Assembly (NCBI RefSeq): GCF_000153725.1
Contig: NZ_DS022276.1
Span: 3,706,243 to 3,745,471 of the forward strand
DNA: 39,229 nt
Source of the DNA: Salipiger bermudensis HTCC2601
Lineage (GTDB): Bacteria; Pseudomonadota; Alphaproteobacteria; Rhodobacterales; Rhodobacteraceae
Direction of reading: 5' to 3'
Shown: positions 22,055 through 27,615 of the stretch, piece after piece
Layout: each line of letters begins with the position of its first letter
Numbering within the stretch: position 1 is the first letter of the stretch
Translations under genes and position numbers: made by a program
The notes under the pieces: generated by a model
Databases searched by the model: none
What the model saw: the letters and a program-made list of their open reading frames with translations, nothing else
Told to the model about the DNA's origin: nothing

Positions 22055-22750
22055 TCAGCCCCGCTTGAGCAGCGCGGCGTCGCGAGAGCCAGCCCCCAGC
22101 TCGTCGAGAGACGGGTCGGGATCGAGAATAACAACCTGCCCCTTGGAAACGTCGATGATCCCCTCCGAGCGCAAGCGTCCGAGGGCCTTGTTCACGCTCT
22201 GCCGCGAGCAGCCGAGGATCTCGGCCAACTCCGCCTGGTTGGCGCGGACCCGGTCGCGTCCGTCGCACATGGTGAGCAGCCGCAGGAACAGCCGCTGCTC
22301 GAGCGAGCCGTGCTGATCGAGCGCCTTGACCGCGTTGTCATGTGCCATGCGGCTGCGGAACACCGAGGCGACGTTGCGGATGAAGACCGGCGTACGCAGG
22401 AACTCGTAGACCACTGCCGTCGGGCAGAAGAGCAGCGTGGTGAGCGGCTGGGTGCGGCACCACGCGATGCAGGTCTCGCGCGAGATGCACTCGATCTCGC
22501 CCACCGTTTCGCCGGGGCCGATATGCGCCAGCAGCGTCTGCTCGCCGCGCTCTCCGGTCAGCACCACGTCGACGCGGCCATGCGCCACTAGAAACAGGCC
22601 CGGCGGCACCACGTCCTGCTCGAGCAGCACCTCGGGGAATTCGCAGGTCCGCGCCTCGCACCGGTTCAGGAAGTCCGCCTTGTCCTCCGCCGGCAGGTCC
22701 GAGAGAATCCTGGCTCTCAGCAAATGCGGAAACGCCACTGCATTCTTCAT
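22055..22750 (-). CDS. CRP/FNR-family transcriptional regulator, cysteine-rich
   Basis: A 231-residue regulator. A cyclic-nucleotide-type beta-barrel occupies residues about 15-125 (PPGLFLVAHGRVDVVLTG, HIGPGETVGEIECIS). A dimer helix follows, then a winged helix-turn-helix near 170-205 (AELAEILGCSRQSVNKALGRLRSEGII). It lacks the N-terminal cysteine cluster of FNR but has eight cysteines in all, including Cys88, Cys94 and Cys98 within the barrel. The ATG overlaps the stop of the cytochrome gene (ATGA), so it is the last gene of the molybdenum-hydroxylase operon and may control it. The effector is unknown; a redox or thiol signal is conceivable. Confidence 0.88.
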   Translation of the reverse strand: MKNAVAFPHLLRARILSDLPAEDKADFLNRCEARTCEFPEVLLEQDVVPPGLFLVAHGRVDVVLTGERGEQTLLAHIGPGETVGEIECISRETCIAWCRTQPLTTLLFCPTAVVYEFLRTPVFIRNVASVFRSRMAHDNAVKALDQHGSLEQRLFLRLLTMCDGRDRVRANQAELAEILGCSRQSVNKALGRLRSEGIIDVSKGQVVILDPDPSLDELGAGSRDAALLKRG

Positions 22751-23730
22751 GGATTCGACCGGTCCTCCAGATAAGAGCGGATCTTGCGCATGTTGCAGAC
22801 TGGCTGGGTCGGGTCGGCACAACAAGACTGAACCGCTGCGACAGATGCGCCGTAGATCTCTTCCCACGCCTCCTCCGAGAGCCCGAAATAGGGCGGCATG
22901 GCATGGCTGAGCGGATAGCTCTGCGCCGCCTCGTCGGCGCCGTGCACCGGCGCGCCGGTCATCCAGGAGGCCAGCTGACCGCAGGAGCCGGGCTTTTCCG
23001 CTGACGGGTCCTGCGGGCTGAGGCGCCCGGTGCCGATGCGGTGGCAGCCGAGACAGGTGTTGTCGCGCGGCAGCATCTCGTGGGTCGGCCAGTCGGCAAA
23101 GCCGAAGCCCGCATCGACATGCGCATAGGGCCCGAGCGGATTGGTCGGCACGTGGCCCCAGACCTGCCCGACGAAGGGCGAGTACATGAACGGGTCATTG
23201 TCGTGGCAACTACCGCAGTCATCCGCGACGACGGTCTCGGGCGGCGCCCAGAAGCCTTCGGCACCCGGATCGGTCGGCGACGGCACCGCCGCGCCGCTGA
23301 CCGGCGCGCCCCCGGGGCCCTTGGCCTGAAACCAGCAGGTCGCGCCGGTGGCCGGGTTATGCGCGATCACGTCGATCTCGTCGAACTCCGTGCTGTCGGC
23401 GCTGCGCAAGCGCTTCTGGCGGCACATGACCGAGACCTGCGCGGTCTCGGTCGAGAGGTTCAGGATGCGCGAGAACGGCACGCATTGCCCGTCCGAGCCC
23501 GGCCCGTTGTCGAGCAGCCCCGGCCGGTCACAGGTTTCGGGCGCGCGGTCGGTGATCCGGGCGCCGTCGACGGTGATCGGCACGGTGACGCCCTCGGCGC
23601 AGTCGAAGCCCGGGATCGGCGCGATGGCGGCGGCGCAGGCCGCGCCGTAGACCTCGTGCGGCGATTGGGCGTCTGCCGGCGGAGCGAGCACAGCCAGCGT
23701 TATGGCGGAGGCTATAACGCGGGCTCTCAT
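22747..23730 (-). CDS. Secreted dihaem c-type cytochrome, cysteine-rich
   Basis: A 327-residue exported protein with a signal peptide (MRARVIASAITLAVLAPPADA) and two CxxCH haem-attachment sites, CGSCH (172-176) and CLGCH (226-230). About ten further cysteines (near residues 32, 44, 67, 83, 103, 132, 250, 303, 304, 312) could form disulfides in the periplasm. The N-terminal 160 residues carry no haem motif and may be a separate beta-rich domain. It is linked by ATGA overlaps to the iron-sulfur subunit before it and the regulator after it. It most likely carries electrons from the molybdenum enzyme to the respiratory chain. It does not look like the triple-haem cytochrome usual in such operons. 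Confidence 0.85.
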   Translation of the reverse strand: MRARVIASAITLAVLAPPADAQSPHEVYGAACAAAIAPIPGFDCAEGVTVPITVDGARITDRAPETCDRPGLLDNGPGSDGQCVPFSRILNLSTETAQVSVMCRQKRLRSADSTEFDEIDVIAHNPATGATCWFQAKGPGGAPVSGAAVPSPTDPGAEGFWAPPETVVADDCGSCHDNDPFMYSPFVGQVWGHVPTNPLGPYAHVDAGFGFADWPTHEMLPRDNTCLGCHRIGTGRLSPQDPSAEKPGSCGQLASWMTGAPVHGADEAAQSYPLSHAMPPYFGLSEEAWEEIYGASVAAVQSCCADPTQPVCNMRKIRSYLEDRSNP

Positions 23731-24248
23731 AGCTCGATCGCCTCCCCGGCATTGACCGCCTCGGCCAGCGAGCGCAGCGCCTCGAAGTAGCGCACGTAGC
23801 CGGTGCAGCGGCAGATATGGCTGCCGATGGCCTCCATCATCGCGGCCTCGAGCTGGTCGGGCGGCACCGGCTGCGCCTGCAGCCCGCTCAGGAACATCCG
23901 CGCCGCCATCACGAAGCCCGGTGCGCAATAGCCGCACTGGAAGGCGAACTGGTCGAGGAAGGCCTGTTGCACCGGATCGGGCCGGCCTCCGCGGGCGACG
24001 CTCTCGATTGTCGAGACCTGTGTGCCGTCGAGCGTTGCCAGCGCGGTGGAGCAGCTGATCGTCGGCGAGGGCGCCGGGCTCGGCGGCTTGACCACCTGCA
24101 CGGTGCAGGCACGGCAGACGCCGATACCGCAGCAGAGCTTGGTGCCGGTGAGGTTCAGCTCGTGATGCAGGAAATCGAGCAGCGTTTCCTGGCCGCGGCT
24201 GTCGGGCAACTCGAAGTCCACGCCATTGACTGTAAAGCGGATGGTCAT
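23727..24248 (-). CDS. Molybdenum hydroxylase [2Fe-2S] subunit
   Basis: A 173-residue subunit with the two-domain layout of xanthine-dehydrogenase-family iron-sulfur proteins. The plant-type ferredoxin domain has Cys40, Cys45, Cys48 and Cys66 (CCGIGVCRACTV ... SC). The alpha-helical domain has FQCGYCAPG (Cys105, Cys108) and HICRCTGY (Cys146, Cys148). The usual CGAC is CRAC here. It passes electrons from the molybdenum site to the next carrier. It has no signal of its own and is presumably exported with the Tat-signal-bearing large subunit. ATGA overlaps join it to the genes on both sides. Closest by type to IorA/PaoA-like subunits. Confidence 0.93.
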   Translation of the reverse strand: MTIRFTVNGVDFELPDSRGQETLLDFLHHELNLTGTKLCCGIGVCRACTVQVVKPPSPAPSPTISCSTALATLDGTQVSTIESVARGGRPDPVQQAFLDQFAFQCGYCAPGFVMAARMFLSGLQAQPVPPDQLEAAMMEAIGSHICRCTGYVRYFEALRSLAEAVNAGEAIEL

Positions 24249-27061
24249 GGCGCGAGCCCCCCGAGGATCTTGTCCGGTGTCATCGGCAGCGAGGCGAAGC
24301 GCACGCCGGTGGCATCGCGCAGCGCGTTGGAGATCGCCGGCGGGATCGAGCACATCACCGCCTCGGCGATGCCGCGTCCGACCCGCGGGCTGTCTGGCGG
24401 CGGCGGCAGGGTGATCAACTCCTGCGCCCGTGCACCGGGCACGTAGCGGTCGCCCAGAGGCACGTCGCCGGCGCGCGCCACGTGGTAGCGGTTGAGGTTC
24501 CAGCGCCCGTCGGCGGGGCCCTCCATGCCCGGCGGCATGTCCTCGAGCAGGCTGTAACTGATCGCCATCGCGACGCCGCCCTGACTCTGCCCCGAGACCA
24601 GCTCGGGCACGTGGATGTGCCCGGCATTGAGCACGCTCAGCACATTCTCGACCTGCACGCGTCCGCTCGCGCGGTCGAGCGTCAGCCCGACCACGTTGAC
24701 ACAAGGGGCCCAGACATAGCGCGAATAGCGCGCGGTCTCGGGCGCGGGGTAGCTGCCGTCGCGGCGCGGGATCGGCTGCGGCGCGGTCTTGCTGCCGTGG
24801 TAATAGGCCAGCCCGTCGAGCTGCAGGCGCAGCGCGCCGCCGGGCGTGTCGAAATCGGCCTCGACCCAGACGTTCTGGAAATAGGCATGCCCCAGCGCGC
24901 CGGTGGGCAGGCCCATTTCATGGACCACCTCGGCCAGCGCCGCCAGCGTCAGCGGCGCGCCAATCCCGCCCGCAGGCCGCAGCGCGCCGGCGTCCCAGAC
25001 CACATCCTCGGGCGACAGCGGACCACCGCCCCAGAGCCTTGCCGCCGCGACCAGCAGCGAGCCGCGCAGCAAGGCCTGCGCCGTCTGTTGCACGGTGTTG
25101 ACCTGATGCAGCCCGGTCAGGCAGGCCGAGGACGAGCCGGTGCCCTTCTGGGTCCACATCGGATCGTCCCAGCGGTCTGGGTTGTCGCTGTCGTCGCTCA
25201 GCCCGGTCTGCGGGAAGAGCGTGTAGCCGCCCATCTCGACGCGGGTCGCATTGGCCCCGAGGATCGGCCCGATGGTGACCCCCAGCGTCGTGGCCGAGCC
25301 GTTGCCCATGTCCACCGCATCGGACTGCACTGTCAGCGTGCCGTCGCGCTCGAGATGCACCGCCGCGACCATGCCGTCGCCCGAGGTGCCGTAGGCCTGC
25401 AACGACATGGCGAGCCCGGTGCCGTAGGTCCGCCCCTCGGCCTCGTGCGCGGCCCGGATCTCGGCGCGCTCGGCCCAGAGCGGGTGCGCCGCGGCGATGT
25501 CGAGCATTTCGGGCAGGCTCAGCGATTGCTCGATGGGGCCGCCGGTGACCGTGGTGTCGCCCTCGGCGATCAGGTTGGCCCGGCGCAGCGCCATCGGGTC
25601 CCAACCCTGCGCCGCGGCGAGATCGTCTAGCGCCGTCTCGATGGCGAAATAGGCCTGCGGGCCGCCGAAGCCGCGCTGCGAGCCGCCAGAGATGTTCTCG
25701 GTGTGCAGGGCCTCGGCGTGGATGTCCGCCACCGGCAGGCGATAGCTGCCTCCCGCGCAGAGCGCTCCCAACGAGGCCACGTAGGGCGACAGGTTGCGCC
25801 GCCCGCCGCCATCGAAGCTCATCGAGAGCTGGACCGCCTCGAGCCGCATGTCGTCATGGGCATAGAGCGTGCCCTCTGCCGTCGTGGCGTGGCGCTTGAG
25901 CCCGACGCGGAACTGCTCGAACCGGTCATAGGCGAGGCGGACCGGGTTGCCGTCGGCAAAGGCCACCGCCAGCGCCAGCATCAGCGAAAACGGCGAACTG
26001 TCGCGCCCGCCAAAGCCCCCGCCCGGGTAACAGCTGTGCAGCGTCACATGGCTCAACTCCGGGACCGGAGAGCCGGCGCTGCCGAACATGCTGGCGATGT
26101 TGCGCAGGTCGCCATCGGGCGACTGGGTGCCGAGAACCAGCTGCATCTCCCGGCGTGCCGGGTCGATCCAGGCAAGGCCAGCCTCGGGCTCCATGAACAT
26201 CGGGTCCATCGCCCGCATCTCGGCGCGGATCGGCTGGCGGATCAGCCCGGTCGCCTCGTCCAGCGCCTTGCGGATGCGCGCCTGCACGCCCGGCGCCTCG
26301 CGCGCATAGGTCTCGGCGTCAGTGCCGGCATAATCGAAGCCCGGATCCTTGACGTAGAGCGTGCGCGGATCGAACGGGTGATCCGGCAGCGGCGTGCCGT
26401 CAGGGCCTTCGCCGGGCCCGTAGTGCTGCACGATGCCGTCATCCCCGGCGAGGAAGCGGCGCGCCGCTCGATAGGCTGCGAGGCTGTCGAAAAGCAAAAG
26501 CGCCACAGCCTGCCCGAGGAAGTTCGGCGTCGTGCCCGGCATCACCAGAAGGTCGAAGCTCAGCCCATCCGGCAGGTTGAAGCTGCCGTCCTTGGCCGCC
26601 TTCTCCTGCTCTGCGGCCTTGGCCGACAGGAGGTCATCCACGTGTAGATCGCGCTCGAACTGCACCGGCGCGTCGAAGAGCCTCGGGTCGAGATCGCTGC
26701 CGAGGATCACCCGCGTCGGCGCGGCCTCTGGCGGCAGAGGCGCAAGGTCCAGCCCGAGAAAGGCCTCCTGCGTGGTGCGGGCGCGCAGGTAGAGCGCGTG
26801 CCACTGGTGATCCGGCCAGCCCGCCATGTCGCCGGCTCGAAAATCGCGGGCGTAGATCTTCTGGCCGGTGACCTTGGCCAGCCCCTCAATGCGCTGTGCG
26901 GCCACCCCGGGCACCGGGCCGAGCGGTGTGGAGACACCCGCACCCGCGCCCTGCCCGCGACCCGGCAGTCCCAGCACGCTCAGCCCGATGATCCCGGATG
27001 CGGTTTTCAGAAAGCCGCGGCGCGTCATCGGCGCGGCATTGCTGACTGGCGGGGGTGCCAT
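24245..27061 (-). CDS. Molybdenum hydroxylase large subunit, Tat-exported (IorB-like)
   Basis: A 938-residue molybdopterin-binding subunit of the xanthine dehydrogenase/aldehyde oxidoreductase family. The N-terminus has a twin-arginine signal (MTRRGFLKTASGIIGL, Arg14-Arg15), so it should be folded with its cofactor and exported. Family motifs include CYPGGGFGGRDSSPF, GGSQRGFGGPQAYFAIE and, near the end, GRGIAEAVMCSIPPAISNAL with the presumed catalytic Glu900. Operons of this IorAB type lack the FAD subunit and use a cytochrome c, as here. The substrate (an aldehyde or N-heterocycle) is unknown. The ATG at 27061 has GAGGGAGAGGG upstream; an ATG at 27028 is an alternative start. It is the first gene of the operon. 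Confidence 0.93.
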   Translation of the reverse strand: MAPPPVSNAAPMTRRGFLKTASGIIGLSVLGLPGRGQGAGAGVSTPLGPVPGVAAQRIEGLAKVTGQKIYARDFRAGDMAGWPDHQWHALYLRARTTQEAFLGLDLAPLPPEAAPTRVILGSDLDPRLFDAPVQFERDLHVDDLLSAKAAEQEKAAKDGSFNLPDGLSFDLLVMPGTTPNFLGQAVALLLFDSLAAYRAARRFLAGDDGIVQHYGPGEGPDGTPLPDHPFDPRTLYVKDPGFDYAGTDAETYAREAPGVQARIRKALDEATGLIRQPIRAEMRAMDPMFMEPEAGLAWIDPARREMQLVLGTQSPDGDLRNIASMFGSAGSPVPELSHVTLHSCYPGGGFGGRDSSPFSLMLALAVAFADGNPVRLAYDRFEQFRVGLKRHATTAEGTLYAHDDMRLEAVQLSMSFDGGGRRNLSPYVASLGALCAGGSYRLPVADIHAEALHTENISGGSQRGFGGPQAYFAIETALDDLAAAQGWDPMALRRANLIAEGDTTVTGGPIEQSLSLPEMLDIAAAHPLWAERAEIRAAHEAEGRTYGTGLAMSLQAYGTSGDGMVAAVHLERDGTLTVQSDAVDMGNGSATTLGVTIGPILGANATRVEMGGYTLFPQTGLSDDSDNPDRWDDPMWTQKGTGSSSACLTGLHQVNTVQQTAQALLRGSLLVAAARLWGGGPLSPEDVVWDAGALRPAGGIGAPLTLAALAEVVHEMGLPTGALGHAYFQNVWVEADFDTPGGALRLQLDGLAYYHGSKTAPQPIPRRDGSYPAPETARYSRYVWAPCVNVVGLTLDRASGRVQVENVLSVLNAGHIHVPELVSGQSQGGVAMAISYSLLEDMPPGMEGPADGRWNLNRYHVARAGDVPLGDRYVPGARAQELITLPPPPDSPRVGRGIAEAVMCSIPPAISNALRDATGVRFASLPMTPDKILGGLAP

Positions 27062-27615
27062 GCCCGTCTCCCTCTCCCTCAACGCTCCGTGTCGGAGCTC
27101 GTCCGGGTGGACGATCAAAATTAAATTATGTTTAGATGCTTTGAGGCGAGCGTGACGGCACACGGCACAACCGTCAAGTGCGGCGGCGGGACGACACAAG
27201 GATTTTCTCTGAAAGATCGACGTGAGGCGCCGGACTGGCTCAAGAAGCAGGACCGGCCCGGACGCAGTCCCGAAGACCTGCGCCCGAACCAACGGGCCAC
27301 GACGGCCCAGCACACACCCACACACCTGCACCGGACGCACTTGCGAGCCGATAGATCACGCACCTCCCCTCGCGAGGAAAGAAGGCTGTCCGGATGACAG
27401 GTGCCCGATATGGTTCGGACGCCGGCCCCGGACGTCGGGATGGATGATGGCGGCACTGCAGCCCGAAGCGGGAACAATCTGCAGCACCACCGAGGAAAAC
27501 CTACCTGCAATAAAGCGAAGGGAAAAAAGTCCTTCATATTTCGACAATCAACGTCCTGAGATTGCCATGACCGCGCCAATCCGAGAACGCCGAAAGTCCC
27601 GGACATGTCAGCGGC

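Follow-up and report, generated by a model that had tools for sequence, protein, structure and literature searches.

A molybdenum hydroxylase operon of Salipiger bermudensis in which a dihaem cytochrome probably occupies the place of a triple-haem subunit

In enzymes of the xanthine-oxidase family, a molybdenum (Mo) centre hydroxylates the substrate with oxygen derived from water and the electrons leave through two [2Fe-2S] clusters, being passed on to respiration by a cytochrome subunit in the periplasmic molybdenum hydroxylases. Isoquinoline 1-oxidoreductase (IorAB) corresponds to a two-subunit core of Mo and 2Fe-2S proteins, and PaoABC of Escherichia coli contains a flavin adenine dinucleotide (FAD) subunit. 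For PaoEFG and for AldFGH of acetic acid bacteria, the third subunit is a triple-haem cytochrome. To our knowledge, what decides the acceptor of these periplasmic enzymes is poorly known. PaoEFG of Pseudomonas is described as a periplasmic complex of 2Fe-2S, Mo, and cytochrome c subunits with hydroxymethylfurfural (HMF) as substrate (PMC12064950). The 39,229-nucleotide stretch of Salipiger bermudensis HTCC2601 analysed here (contig NZ_DS022276.1, hereafter the window) carries a four-gene operon in which the genes of a Mo subunit and a [2Fe-2S] (FeS) subunit are followed by those of a secreted dihaem cytochrome and a CRP/FNR-family regulator. We consider it likely that the first three encode a periplasmic three-subunit hydroxylase of the xanthine-oxidase family whose electron-acceptor subunit has been exchanged for a non-homologous dihaem one.

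The gene content, the gene order and the family assignment are direct observations. On the minus strand, the Mo subunit gene (27061-24245) encodes 938 residues with a twin-arginine motif (RRGFLK) and the Pfam domains MoCoBD_1 (PF02738, 3e-41) and MoCoBD_2 (PF20256, 4e-19), the FeS subunit gene (24248-23727, minus) encodes 173 residues with Fer2_2 (4e-22) and Fer2 (8e-8), and the cytochrome gene (23730-22747, minus) encodes 327 residues. As the original prediction had proposed, the coordinates place the four genes of the operon in a row joined by three ATGA overlaps, and four-base overlaps among the first three genes are also present in plasmids of Salipiger abyssi and Burkholderia pyrrocinia. 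A genome contig scan for the cytochrome found 57 loci, some of them cut by contig ends, and in 54 of these the Mo and FeS genes lie upstream of the cytochrome in the same order. Because this order is repeated in 54 of 57 loci and the overlaps recur in annotated relatives, the Mo-FeS-cytochrome arrangement is not a matter of chance. By its sequence, the Mo subunit is placed in the xanthine-oxidase (molybdenum hydroxylase) family, since the MoCoBD domains, a C-terminal Glu motif and a two-cluster FeS subunit are all present. E900 of this G-x-x-E motif is kept in 59/59 Mo rows and aligns with the motif of DgMOP and PaoC, whose Glu is catalytic. Two [2Fe-2S] clusters are expected in the FeS subunit; no signal peptide was recognised in it by eye, and presumably it is exported together with the Mo subunit via the twin-arginine translocation (Tat) pathway.

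The cytochrome contains CxxCH only twice, as CGSCH (residues 172-176; 23203-23217, minus) and CLGCH (residues 226-230; 23041-23055, minus), and 10 of its 14 Cys lie outside these haem motifs. Both counts agree with the original prediction, as does a haem-free N-terminal part, which corresponds to a 145-residue domain without CxxCH (residues 22-166; 23233-23667, minus) and with six conserved Cys. The N-terminus is hydrophobic and ends in ...PPADA-QS, being judged by eye a signal peptide; in Kiloniella and Shewanella it has a lipobox-like Cys (also by eye), so in these organisms the cytochrome may be a lipoprotein. No Pfam or NCBIfam match was found at E<=1e-3, and no PDB sequence match at E<=1. 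An AlphaFold model, built without haem, has a predicted local distance difference test score (pLDDT) of 88, with the N-terminal domain as its most confident part (mean 95); neither the whole model nor this domain alone has a PDB match by Foldseek at E<=0.001. A literature search covering titles and openings of abstracts found no description of this dihaem cytochrome. The family is undescribed in Pfam, NCBIfam and the PDB sequences, and the protein may represent a novel structural class. Profiles give no sign of a relation to cytochrome P460: PF16694 is absent from the window cytochrome and 11 relatives among matches up to E=10, has no match in the host genome at E<=1e-6, and hhalign gives a probability of 4% over a 22-column stretch at a CxxCH. 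The gene is a single copy in the 5.48 Mb host genome, and its named close relatives belong to Salipiger and Roseivivax.

The identities of the cytochrome and the Mo subunit are correlated over 52 rows (the window and 51 loci) with r=0.955, against a maximum of 0.157 in 500 permutations. Searches starting from the Mo subunit were run to avoid the bias of finding loci via the cytochrome. Among plasmids, the Mo subunit reaches >=39.6% identity in five records, which are exactly the five that carry the dihaem cytochrome. The next 14 records (H11-H24) have Mo identities of 29-34%. Nine of them were opened: the third gene contains three CxxCH in seven, a FeS/ferritin-like fusion is present instead in one (Mycolicibacterium), and one (Methylocella) has no cytochrome. 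A class sample of 289 genomes has the Mo subunit at E<=1e-60 in five, which besides the host are two with the dihaem cytochrome (one a copy of L067) and two with the triple-CxxCH type, one of whose loci appears to duplicate an opened Tistrella plasmid. Thirteen loci fetched via the Mo subunit gave nine of the triple-CxxCH type (L092 and L095 being the same record), two dihaem, one FeS/ferritin-like fusion and one without either. Of 295 genomes from the host's family, 12 contain the Mo subunit at E<=1e-60; nine of them are exactly the nine with the dihaem cytochrome, and the other three combine a Mo subunit 34-38% identical with a triple-CxxCH cytochrome of 420-431 residues. Overall, the third gene is a triple-CxxCH cytochrome in 11 of the 13 distinct opened sister loci.

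In the Mo tree, the rows with the new cytochrome form one group, with a Shimodaira-Hasegawa-like approximate likelihood ratio test (SH-aLRT) support of 95 (57 rows) and of 86 (44 rows) after addition of locus L154, and the triple-haem rows form another with a support of 100 in both trees (6 and 9 rows). Both trees omit L061 and Mo rows shorter than 700 residues (L027, L035 and the paralogue L077), and the 44-row tree also omits 13 near-copies, L073, L074 and L089. Most rows of the new-cytochrome group were found via the cytochrome, so the tree speaks for coherence and not for frequency. This exchange pattern is observed, and a single subunit exchange would explain it, with either direction fitting. 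It could still be argued that the dihaem protein descends from a triple-haem cytochrome c through loss of one haem domain and later divergence, as it holds the same operon position and is exported too. This is very improbable: hhalign of the dihaem protein against six triple-haem sister cytochromes gives a probability of about 4%, over one 47-column stretch around a CxxCH, and thus no detectable homology; Pfam Cytochrom_C is found in 3/3 triple-haem partners scanned, whereas in the dihaem protein it stays below the cut-off (E=0.014, residues 223-288); and the dihaem protein has the additional 145-residue domain as well as relatives in Myxococcota outside Mo operons. The earlier claim that this cytochrome departs from the usual triple-haem partner is upheld, the dihaem protein taking the place of that partner in one coherent Mo group. 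For the close relatives, the search with the cytochrome and the inspection of its neighbours led to no described family, and to Mo hydroxylase genes in the 54 loci mentioned above.

Ten of the 57 loci (L019, L021, L025, L031, L041, L042, L057, L059, L064 and L070) are not in the cytochrome alignment A2, although L025 and L031 were kept, with a few residues past their stop, in the core-row and Cys counts, and L070 by its second half only. In these counts a covariation of Cys is observed: C250 and C304 are lost together in nine loci and in four Myxococcota proteins, C44 and C103 are lost together in locus L061, and every row that covers both partners of a pair has either both of them or neither. 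Because of these coupled losses, the extra Cys are read as disulfides, and C250-C304 and C44-C103 are indicated as pairs. The description of the cytochrome as cysteine-rich thus holds for its ten extra Cys, which most likely form structural disulfides and not extra redox sites. All 55 core rows have both haem motifs unchanged, and Met278 is present in 55/55 of them and in 12/13 distant (Myxococcota) rows, so that the ligands of haem 2 are probably His230 and Met278.

This conservation also bears on the idea that the cytochrome is no electron acceptor at all, but a secreted partner for substrate capture through its N-terminal domain, for assembly or for surface attachment. The N-terminal domain is indeed the most confident in the model, many of its residues are invariant although it contains no haem site, and some distant relatives are parts of secreted proteins of about 1000 residues. 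However, the invariance of both haem motifs and Met278, an operon position equal to that of the cytochrome in the sister enzymes, and the absence of a FAD subunit among the scanned neighbours make such a role unlikely.

The wider family extends into Myxococcota. The cytochrome profile matches 18/188 genomes in the phylum of a Myxococcales metagenome-assembled genome (MAG), three of them already known from the first scan. Twelve regions were fetched. Only L154 contains the genes of the Mo and FeS subunits, and its Mo protein lies at the base of the new-cytochrome group; the other 11 have no Mo hydroxylase in the stretch, several of these being short contig ends. The cytochrome is thus found beside Mo hydroxylase genes in the close relatives (54/57 loci) and mostly apart from them in the wider family in Myxococcota (11/12 regions). 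The Myxococcota secreted proteins share with the window cytochrome two CxxCH, most of the conserved Cys and Met278 (in the 12/13 rows), and differ from it in their architecture: some stand alone, and in others the module is embedded in about 1000 residues that add a third CxxCH and extended C-terminal regions. In L160-L163 the dihaem module lies inside secreted proteins of about 1000 residues with this third CxxCH, whose C-terminal repeats resemble, by eye, a beta-propeller, and Pfam recognises almost nothing in the seven Myxococcota proteins scanned. Also, locus L068, on a contig titled MAG Klebsiella pneumoniae, has a module like the Myxococcota ones and belongs to a genome included in the same phylum sample; its organism label is probably wrong. 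As a tentative and rather speculative extension, the 145-residue disulfide-locked domain and the two-haem domain would make up a new structural class of secreted dihaem module, present in Myxococcota in large surface proteins and adopted once by a Mo hydroxylase lineage in replacement of the triple-haem cytochrome, which would link oxidation in the periplasm to another acceptor, perhaps one outside the cell or bound to its surface.

For the enzyme itself, we infer the formation of a complex, the electron path and the export. The Mo subunit, exported via Tat along with the FeS subunit, would hydroxylate a small organic substrate, and the electrons would pass from Mo through the two [2Fe-2S] clusters to the dihaem cytochrome and then to a periplasmic or membrane acceptor, with the ten extra Cys of the cytochrome forming structural disulfides. 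Because a non-homologous cytochrome occupies the position of the triple-haem one in the operon, its final electron acceptor or docking partner is probably not the one used by the sister enzymes. Of the distinct electron-transfer branch that had been proposed, the subunit exchange is borne out, and the different route follows from it by inference.

Regarding the substrate, the solved chain that scores best with the Mo subunit is the aldehyde oxidoreductase DgMOP (2e-28); nicotinate dehydrogenase (1e-24) and PaoC (5e-21) match as well. The matches cover chiefly the MoCoBD part, and all characterised enzymes compared are only distantly related to the Mo subunit; the other Mo-type proteins of the host genome are <=35% identical to it, over part of the length. 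After the GGGFGGR loop, Asp354 is present in 57/57 Mo rows having a letter there, and this position corresponds to Glu802 of bovine xanthine oxidase and to a hydrophobic residue in aldehyde oxidases. In the Kiloniella group (L044, L045, L047, L048 and L067) a PfkB kinase and an inosine-uridine nucleoside hydrolase are found directly upstream of the operon and a sulfatase downstream, these families being named by Pfam on L044 only; the PfkB kinase and the sulfatase fit no single pathway. Moreover, in two Methylobacterium plasmids (L080 and L094) the triple-haem sister operon is set among genes of a nucleobase symporter, 8-oxoguanine deaminase, a LysR regulator and uraD. This sister operon could correspond to a periplasmic purine hydroxylase. 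Taken together, Asp354, the purine genes of Methylobacterium and the nucleoside hydrolase of Kiloniella point weakly to an N-heteroaromatic, purine-like substrate rather than an aldehyde.

A plausible though rather doubtful alternative is that the operon encodes an aldehyde-detoxifying oxidoreductase like PaoABC or PaoEFG, in which the variation of the cytochrome would be cosmetic and the respiratory acceptor the same. The first rank of DgMOP among the solved chains agrees with it, and so does PaoEFG, which is described as combining 2Fe-2S, Mo and cytochrome c subunits and as oxidising HMF (PMC12064950). Nonetheless, the restriction of those matches mainly to the MoCoBD part, the invariant Asp in a position that is hydrophobic in aldehyde oxidases, and the setting of two sister operons among purine genes argue against an aldehyde oxidoreductase, and the lack of homology between the sister triple-haem cytochromes and the dihaem one argues against a merely cosmetic change.

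Several points weigh against the preferred reading of an exchanged acceptor subunit and against its details. The contig scan used two conserved cytochrome peptides, which favours close relatives, and the sister comparison is based on 11 distinct triple-haem loci. The decrease of the support of the new-cytochrome group from 95 to 86 with L154 occurs in trees that are both quick searches with long branches. L154 itself, from Myxococcota, has a Mo subunit only 34% identical and yet carries the dihaem cytochrome; therefore Mo identity alone does not divide the two kinds. The nine losses of C250 and C304 in loci all belong to the Kiloniella group and may be one event. Also, neither His124 nor Met182 is conserved in distant members, which weakens both as candidates for the distal ligand of haem 1. 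In the sister Mo subunits, the counterpart of Asp354 is Asp in 5 and Glu in 3 of the 8 rows, so this residue does not set the new-cytochrome Mo group apart, and the scanned neighbours in other loci are mostly unrelated genes, which confines the substrate idea to two lineages.

The fourth gene of the operon (22750-22055, minus) encodes a CRP/FNR-family regulator of 231 residues with HTH_Crp_2 and cNMP_binding domains. Downstream homologues occur in 18 of the 57 loci, every one of which has a Rhodobacterales title, and in the S. abyssi plasmid. The gene belongs to the operon, as had been suggested, and is a lineage-specific neighbour. Four residues of the protein, Cys31, Cys94, Cys98 and Cys181, are each kept in 18-20 of 20 rows, and from this pattern the regulator may sense redox state or a metal.

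Upstream, 183 nt before the Mo start codon, a two-hairpin element (27322-27245, minus) is common to the window and five relatives (L014:6360-6437, L015:5984-6061, L016:6442-6519, L018:6400-6477 and L021:6346-6423), in which the first hairpin, GGGCC-GTCGT-GGCCC, hardly varies and the long stem behind it differs in sequence between species. The 15-mer of the first hairpin occurs once in the host genome, the folding z-scores of the element range from -2.0 to -4.0, and there is no Rfam match. A covariance model built from the six sequences recovers the same six only at >64 bits among 53 sources, one further match of 20 bits being the second stem on the opposite strand. In 198 family genomes, strong matches (81-85 bits) are restricted to the host and a close relative (G088), both upstream of the operon, and weak ones (20-29 bits) in 19 other genomes were taken for chance GC-rich hairpins. 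RNAalifold on a plain alignment gives a covariation term of -0.3 kcal/mol, with 4/22 pairs changed on both sides and L018 out of register; arms picked sequence by sequence pair well, but such picking favours pairing. The element lies within a predicted open reading frame (ORF; 27121-27606, minus) without a Pfam match. It would be a candidate leader RNA, for which the covariation is suggestive.

Around the window operon, the nearest flanking genes scanned with Pfam encode a rhodanese, UvrA, a metallophosphatase and a SMC-like ATPase. A reading of function from the neighbours was tried and rejected, as six of the seven flanking-ORF clusters present in at least 4 of 7 host groups are core genes or overlapping ORFs; a short-chain dehydrogenase is among the members of the seventh, which covers 10 loci. 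Thirty flanking ORFs scanned with Pfam were mostly unrelated, with occasional redox enzymes such as a GMC oxidoreductase (L031), an animal-type haem peroxidase (L065) and a styrene-monooxygenase-like protein (L012). In Litoreibacter roseus, the operon is followed by a protein with AIRS and AIRS_C domains, possibly SelD (L028:12130-13179). In the Mycolicibacterium arabiense plasmid (L081:3980-8364), the Mo gene is followed by a [2Fe-2S]-ferritin-like (PF12902) fusion, and no cytochrome gene was found behind it.

Sister groups that differ by a clean subunit exchange correspond to a natural experiment on the re-plumbing of an oxidase. Moreover, the dihaem family lacks a model in Pfam and NCBIfam, and neither sequence searches nor Foldseek gave a solved relative, so a single structure would define it, together with what it does in the large proteins of Myxococcota. 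With respect to known systems, the original prediction of an IorAB/Pao-type enzyme stands as to the xanthine-oxidase family, while the FAD subunit of PaoABC and the triple-haem third subunit are not present in the operon. The likeness to IorAB is by description and concerns the two-subunit core. With PaoABC, the window operon shares a periplasmic enzyme of the xanthine-oxidase family, its Mo subunit matching PaoC (5e-21), and differs in its dihaem cytochrome and in the FAD subunit, which was found neither in the operon nor among the scanned neighbours, the rest of the genome not having been searched for one. PaoEFG, compared by description and not by sequence, is like the window operon in its 2Fe-2S, Mo and cytochrome c subunits; unlike the triple-haem cytochrome of the PaoEFG/AldFGH type, the third subunit in the window has two CxxCH and no Cytochrom_C above the cut-off. 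Finally, the closest counterparts are the sister Mo-FeS-triple-haem operons, such as those of Methylobacterium radiotolerans (WP_234742351) and Paracoccus seriniphilus (WP_218822595), among which no characterised member was found. These have the same gene order, with a homologous FeS subunit, the cytochrome as third gene and a Mo subunit that shares 29-38% identity along most of its length, whereas their cytochrome is of about 420-442 residues, with three CxxCH and Cytochrom_C domains.

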